From Myxococcales bacterium (GTDB taxonomy: Bacteria; Myxococcota; UBA727; VGSZ01): a DNA stretch of 64,000 bases. The notes beneath the pieces are model-generated. The model had not been told where the DNA came from and did no database searches. It was given only the letters and a program-made list of their open reading frames with translations. The stretch is from the NCBI GenBank assembly GCA_023248635.1, contig JAHFED010000023.1:1-64000 (forward strand). The letters run 5' to 3'. This document shows, in pieces, positions 63,724-63,987 of this stretch; the first letter of the stretch is position 1, and each line of letters opens with the position of its first letter. A program made the translations under genes and the position numbers.

Positions 63724-63858
63724 TTTTGTGAACTGTAGATGACCATTATCAATTTAACCCAAAGGTCGGGCGTTCGACTCGCCCCTGCATCGCAAGAGGC
63801 AGTAGCTCAGCGGTAGAGCACTGGAGCATAGGGTCGTCGGTTTTTTGTTCACATTTTT
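63724..63858 (+). ncRNA. Y RNA (YrlA-like), copy 1
   Basis: Boundaries are approximate. The outer stem is TGTGAAC (63727-63733) with GTTCACA (63847-63853), followed by TTTTT. After an internal loop (5' TGTA), GATGACC (63738-63744) pairs with GGTCGTC (63832-63838), one G-U. Inside lies a tRNA in permuted order: T-arm GGGCG-TTCGACT-CGCCC (63768-63784), acceptor strand CTGCATC (63785-63791), loop GCAA (63792-63795), acceptor strand GAGGCAG (63796-63802; one A-G mismatch), TA, then D-arm GCTC-AGCGGTA-GAGC (63805-63819). This matches bacterial Y RNAs, which have a Ro-binding stem and a tRNA-like module. It is adjacent to rsr. Confidence 0.85.
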
Positions 63859-63862
63859 CTTG

Positions 63863-63987
63863 CATCTTGGTCGAGCTGTAGACGACGGTTTTCGTGCCAG
63901 GGGTTCGAATCCCCTCGCCTCCACCACGGGGGCGTAGCTCAGCGGGAGAGCAGTGCTCCGTCGTCGCCCCCTCGTTCGACCTTCTTC
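63863..63987 (+). ncRNA. Y RNA (YrlA-like), copy 2
   Basis: It begins about ten bases after copy 1; ends are approximate. The outer stem is GGTCGAG (63869-63875) with TTCGACC (63975-63981). After 5' CTGTA, the inner stem GACGACGG (63881-63888) pairs perfectly with CCGTCGTC (63958-63965). Permuted tRNA core: T-arm AGGGG-TTCGAAT-CCCCT (63899-63915), acceptor CGCCTCC (63916-63922), loop ACCAC (63923-63927), acceptor GGGGGCG (63928-63934; seven pairs, one G-U), TA, then D-arm GCTC-AGCGGGA-GAGC (63937-63951). The loop contains A plus CCA, as if a discriminator and CCA tail were kept. No U-tract follows, so the 3' end is uncertain near the window edge. Confidence 0.82.

Follow-up and report, generated by a model that had tools for sequence, protein, structure and literature searches.

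Ro60 is a ring-shaped RNA-binding protein. In bacteria, its orthologue is bound through the lower stem of small Y RNAs, the head of the Y RNA YrlA is a substrate of DusA and TruB, and the Y RNA of Deinococcus tethers Ro60 to PNPase (PMC8394870, PMC4726728, PMC7790460). Salmonella YrlA sits within an rsr-yrlBA-rtcBA operon (PMC7790460), and its structure (6CU1) superposes on those of tRNAs in circularly permuted order (PMC11472068). Permuted tRNA genes are known elsewhere; a duplication/fusion route has been proposed for their origin, and one such archaeal gene carries an encoded CCA with a one-base intervening sequence in the loop (PMC3978253).

Here we describe the end of a 64,000-nucleotide stretch of DNA from a Myxococcales bacterium (contig JAHFED010000023.1; the window). 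It encodes two RNAs, RNA1 and RNA2, that are very probably tandem YrlA-type Y RNAs and the partners of the Ro60 encoded just upstream.

Results and Discussion

Layout of the Ro60 locus

The open reading frame (ORF) preceding the two RNAs matches the Pfam families PF25045 (vWA_Ro60, E 1.5e-59) and PF05731 (TROVE, E 6.4e-42); no other TROVE gene occurs in the 6.5-Mb genome (Table 1). Residues D372, S374, and S376 are invariant across the 21 Ro60 proteins compared. Ro60 is rare in this phylum (5 of 195 genomes), and the gene is absent from both same-genus genomes searched (n = 2). PNPase and RtcB are both encoded in the genome of this bacterium. The final 360 bases of the window, 3' of the Ro60 ORF, contain an inverted repeat followed by RNA1 and RNA2, which are built on a common plan. 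RNA1 begins about 80 bases downstream of the end of the Ro60 ORF and is, as expected for YrlA, a neighbor of Ro60. The inverted repeat is single-copy in the genome and could possibly act as a processing or stop signal. Scans of the Y RNA cluster for promoters and terminators gave nothing useful. Farther upstream, the minus strand of the window carries an ORF (58034–59419) in which a long tract of Glu-Gly (EGEGEG) repeats precedes cysteine-rich segments.

Table 1. Predicted features at the end of the window (positions are those of the window)
Feature	Position	Strand	Description
Ro60/Rsr gene, 557 aa	61975–63648	+	TROVE and Ro60-type vWA with DxSxS metal-binding motif
Inverted repeat	63658–63706		22-nt arms, 95% complementary, no T-run; between Ro60 stop and RNA1
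YrlA RNA 1 (RNA1), whole predicted RNA, ~127 nt	63727–63853	+	folding; Rfam YrlA core match
RNA1 outer stem	63727–63733/63847–63853
RNA1 inner stem	63738–63744/63832–63838
RNA1 permuted core	63768–63819
RNA1 T-arm	63768–63784	+	GGGCG-TTCGACT-CGCCC; descriptor match
RNA1 closed acceptor	63785–63802	+	CTGCATC-GCAA-GAGGCAG, GNRA-type tetraloop; 6/7 pairs
RNA1 TA (tRNA positions 8–9) and D-arm	63803–63819	+	GCTC-AGCGGTA-GAGC
YrlA RNA 2 (RNA2), whole predicted RNA, ~113 nt	63869–63981	+	folding; Rfam YrlA full-length match
RNA2 outer stem	63869–63876/63974–63981
RNA2 inner stem	63881–63888/63958–63965
RNA2 permuted core	63899–63951
RNA2 T-arm	63899–63915	+	AGGGG-TTCGAAT-CCCCT; descriptor match
RNA2 closed acceptor	63916–63934	+	CGCCTCC-ACCAC-GGGGGCG, loop = A73-CCA-C; 7/7 pairs, G3·U70
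RNA2 TA (tRNA positions 8–9) and D-arm	63935–63951	+	GCTC-AGCGGGA-GAGC
Third, decayed Y-like RNA (tentative), start	63994–64000, past window edge (L003:495–588)	+	tentative

Architecture of the two RNAs

The head of each RNA is tRNA-like: it is open at the position of the anticodon arm, and its acceptor end is sealed. An earlier note on this DNA had proposed the order T-arm, 3' acceptor strand, loop, 5' acceptor strand, TA, and D-arm, and this order is exact in both RNAs, including its coordinates. The acceptor loops, predicted to span 4–5 bases, measure 4 nt in RNA1 and 5 nt in RNA2, and the loop bases said to be kept (TTCRA and GG) occur in both as TTCGA and the D-loop GG. The claim that all stems have tRNA lengths (5, 7, and 4 bp) holds, except that the acceptor of RNA1 forms only 6 of 7 pairs, with an A·G mismatch at 3:70. 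Below the head, outer and inner stems are separated by an internal loop that opposes UGUA to GGUUUUUU in RNA1 and UGUA to GCCCCCUC in RNA2. This UGUA × 8-nt loop, common to both RNAs, gives them the asymmetric-loop stem of YrlA.

Free folding of RNA2 (−50.9 kcal/mol, z −2.08) forms all three arms. The same check agreed in part with the proposal for RNA1 (−41.9 kcal/mol, z −2.56): T-arm and acceptor form, but the D-arm is rearranged, and the full permuted fold lies about 1.2 kcal/mol above the minimum. A descriptor that demands a T-stem of 5/5 pairs, an acceptor of at least 6/7, U8, a D-stem of 4/4, TTCRA, and GG found two matches in the window versus none in simulated second-order Markov sequence totaling 7.68 million strand-bases.

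Assignment to the YrlA family

A search with a YrlA model, one of the checks suggested earlier, matches both RNAs: Rfam RF02553 aligns with the whole of RNA2 (42.9 bits, E 1.9e-8) and with the core of RNA1 (31.3 bits, E 4.6e-5). Neither reaches the gathering score of 69, which is a convention rather than a biological trait. Because the YrlA matches beside the other Ro60 genes examined also stay below 69 (28.8–65.1 bits), the likely cause of these sub-threshold scores is the Rfam cut-off and not the RNAs; as it stands, this cut-off hides such RNAs. The model of the Deinococcus Y RNA family (RF01053) gave no match at E ≤ 1 in 63640–64000.

We also used a covariance model (R1) built from 53 cores located close to other Ro60 genes and excluding all sequence of this genome. 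R1 scores RNA2 at 57.6 bits (63893–63953) and RNA1 at 55.5 bits (63762–63821). In a ranking of the entire 6.5-Mb genome, RNA2 comes first, a core on another contig (C34) second, and RNA1 third, all above every tandem-tRNA junction. The permuted-tRNA reading is supported, and the arrangement is one already established for YrlA RNAs.

Controls for the closed acceptor

Tandem tRNA genes likewise read T-arm, acceptor, acceptor, D-arm, so that a closed acceptor needs a junction control. We gathered 115 Ro60 loci from genomes, metagenome-assembled genomes (MAGs), phages, plasmids, and viral contigs (IMG/VR alone lists 480 Ro60 loci); 48 of the 115 contain one or more permuted cores that lie outside tRNA genes. 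The control was run without requiring acceptor pairing. Outside tRNA genes, the acceptor closes in 51 of 59 junctions between a T-arm and a D-arm (1.3 expected from shuffled gaps), compared to 5 of 31 real tandem-tRNA junctions. In an alignment of 57 cores, each of the seven acceptor pairs shows substitutions in both strands; pairing holds in 95.9% of cells, and the covariation signal is lost once the partner strand is shifted by one column. The junction control is the fairer of the two tests, since the 57 cores were chosen by pairing, which inflates covariation. The proposed permuted core, with a closed acceptor and with free ends at the place of the anticodon arm, fits the predicted folds, the covariation in these 57 related cores, and the published YrlA fold (PMC11472068).

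These data bear on the possibility that the cores are decayed tandem tRNA genes, each being the junction of two neighboring tRNAs with the outer halves lost. Real junctions can indeed satisfy the descriptor, as seen in the five closed acceptors and in Lys-Lys, Asn-Asn, and Ala-Glu junctions, and the Rfam YrlA model finds matches in 13 of 14 control genomes, probably owing to such junctions. However, no tRNA gene overlaps or flanks RNA1 or RNA2, both RNAs adjoin Ro60, and the sequence around both cores forms a Y-type stem with a common internal loop. Moreover, the tandem tRNA junctions of this genome reach at most 40.3 bits with R1, below the scores of RNA1 and RNA2 given above. We consider decayed tandem tRNAs very improbable.

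CCA in the sealed loop

The acceptor loop of RNA2, A-CCA-C, corresponds to discriminator 73 and CCA 74–76 in tRNA register, plus one base. RNA2 is among 11 of 60 filtered permuted cores near Ro60 genes with CCA at exactly 74–76. Shuffling each loop yields a mean of 1.28 such cores, and none of 20,000 trials gave as many as 11. Two loci (L021 and L024) share one CCA core, so that about ten of the 11 are independent. Missed tRNA junctions do not account for the CCA cores, since their Y stems are clear and most have full-length YrlA matches. At the acceptor pair 3:70, G·U is the commonest combination (9/52), and most of those nine cores have A73. G3·U70 is the known alanine identity pair, and RNA2 shows the tRNA-Ala pattern with G3·U70 and A73. 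This CCA-in-register pattern of permuted cores may be new.

The same features raise the question as to whether these RNAs could be genuine precursors of permuted tRNAs, cut within the acceptor loop and then charged, in the case of RNA2 with alanine. In addition to G3·U70 and A73, RNA2 has CCA with one extra base before G1, similar to the archaeal permuted tRNA gene with CCA and a one-base intervening sequence (PMC3978253). On the other hand, neither RNA has an anticodon arm or a splice motif; the Y stem takes that place. Related RNAs seal the loop with stable tetraloops (TTCG, GCAA, GAAA), which are not chargeable. A chargeable precursor is about as improbable as decayed tandem tRNAs.

Two other explanations deserve still less credence. 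The earlier note had anticipated that ordinary tRNA finders would fail on this region. Indeed, ARAGORN reports no tRNA in the window, and the Rfam tRNA model returns a single match (63796–63922; 29.2 bits, cut-off 29) that would correspond to a conventional, perhaps interrupted, tRNA. This match is a composite in which the 5' acceptor strand and D-arm of RNA1 are joined to the T-arm and acceptor of RNA2. It lacks an anticodon arm, its acceptor strands pair at 4 of 7 positions, no better than shuffled letters, and it scores far below the real tRNAs of this genome (48.8–78.5 bits). We give this reading almost no weight. A two-piece (permuted) tmRNA is just as implausible: RNA2 is the best match to RF04321 in the genome (30.8 bits, cut-off 47), and no tmRNA, one-piece or permuted, reached the Rfam cut-off anywhere in this 97% complete assembly, but only the T-arm/acceptor part (38 bases) matches the model, the D-stem GCTC/GAGC is present here whereas tmRNA has none, and the stretch from RNA1 to the T-arm of RNA2 is too short for a tag reading frame or pseudoknots.

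Origin of the tRNA-like heads

In records from Sorangium, Minicystis, Byssovorax, Chloroflexi, Verrucomicrobia, and actinophages (L017, L018, L022–L028, L074, and L078), Ro60 genes lie within or next to large arrays of supernumerary tRNA genes. Together with the CCA register and the alanine-type pattern, this setting suggests that the YrlA-type heads arose by duplication or fusion of tRNA genes, with the cores derived from tandem or duplicated tRNA genes. A more specific scenario, which we advance tentatively and at somewhat less than even chances, is that bacterial Y RNAs repeatedly acquired their tRNA-like heads from ordinary tRNA genes with an encoded CCA, which were duplicated in tandem within Ro60-bearing tRNA arrays and lost their outer halves. 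RNA2 would then be an alanine-type example with A73-CCA still in the sealed loop.

Local recruitment of cores from neighboring tRNAs was considered and rejected, because in most loci the halves are no closer to the tRNAs of their own locus than to others. Among RNA1, RNA2, and the C34 core, only the 5' half of RNA2 is close to tRNAs of its own genome (0 of 300 samples were as close); the 3' halves of all three are not. The absence of any special resemblance to local tRNAs in most heads counts against a repeated recent origin. An apparent exception is the Mycobacterium phage Farewell, in which comparison by eye of the Y RNA head with the swapped halves of the phage's own tRNA-Pro(UGG) gave 44 of 47 identical bases (L073:1766–1841, 2121–2183), and the acceptor of this Y RNA is sealed by a TTCG loop. 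However, the tRNA-Pro of another phage scores nearly as high as Farewell's own. If the CCA relics are what they appear to be, they provide a sequence-level answer to the origin of tRNA-mimicking Y RNAs, and every phage or plasmid with Ro60 inside a tRNA array offers a test of it.

Other Y-like RNAs in this genome

A third RNA, which starts just before the window edge, is tentatively a decayed Y RNA. It follows the stem plan of RNA1 and RNA2 (TCGAGC..GCTCGA, a UGU bulge, and GCGCAC..GTGCGC) and contains a T-arm-like GGCG-TTCGATT-CGCC and a hairpin CGTCCC-TCCG-GGGACG, but no D-arm. It scores 8.3 bits, and its fold is no better than that of shuffled sequences (z −0.43).

The core on contig C34 (8450–8507, minus strand; L029) has a GCAA loop, an R1 score of 57.0 bits, and a weak lower stem. 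It lies upstream of a Band_7 (SPFH) gene, far from Ro60. On contig C15 (75356–75690; L182:1255–1625), two permuted-core RNAs lie downstream of a DUF7873 gene. Both have long Y-like closing stems with 7–8-nt bulges (z −4.94 and −2.09). In one, the acceptor loop carries a 41-nt insert that includes a hairpin, and an anticodon-like hairpin is also present; the other has the loop GCCATCT, again with CCA. A strong terminator-like hairpin follows 3' of the pair, and the Rfam YrlA model matches neither of these two RNAs. A constant association of Ro60 loci with DUF7873 or Band_7 genes found no support: tblastn gave one DUF7873 match, in Nonomuraea. In phage Cece, a Band-7 gene is annotated near Ro60.

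Proposed function

By analogy with the relatives described above, Ro60 would grip the outer stem beside the internal loop, while tRNA enzymes would treat the head as a tRNA and introduce dihydrouridine and pseudouridine into its loops. Since the ends emerge at the anticodon-arm place, Ro60 can hold the stem with the head docking in the manner of a tRNA elbow; the closed acceptor precludes both charging and a part in translation. The head may hold an effector near the Ro60 ring, most likely PNPase if the role of the Deinococcus Y RNA carries over. Structured or damaged RNA would thereby be fed to the nuclease, and the Y RNA might also gate what else Ro60 binds. At a guess, the two copies may supply two effectors or doses.

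Comparison with known systems

Two-piece tmRNA (RF04321) shares with RNA2 the order T-arm, CCA, loop, and 5' acceptor strand, as well as G3·U70. It has a tag reading frame and pseudoknots but no D-stem; in RNA1 and RNA2 it is the reverse. The permuted tRNA genes of algae and archaea (Cyanidioschyzon, Thermofilum) similarly place the 3' half before the 5' half with a short acceptor loop, and those of Thermofilum encode CCA, once with one extra base (PMC3978253). In contrast to RNA1 and RNA2, which have neither an anticodon arm nor such a route, these genes mature by splicing into full tRNAs with an anticodon. The Y RNA of Deinococcus radiodurans is stem-bound to a Ro60 orthologue, as proposed for RNA1 and RNA2, and provides the model for the PNPase tether, but it forms its own Rfam family (RF01053), whereas the heads described here match YrlA.

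The closest relative is Salmonella YrlA (RF02553, PDB 6CU1). Its gene adjoins Ro60/Rsr, its lower stem has an asymmetric internal loop, and in its head a T-arm, a closed acceptor, and a D-arm follow one another in the permuted order. The pair described here differs in falling under the Rfam cut-off, in occurring as two, perhaps three, tandem copies, and in the CCA that RNA2 carries in tRNA register in its acceptor loop. This finding adds a tandem YrlA pair to a lineage in which Ro60 is rare.
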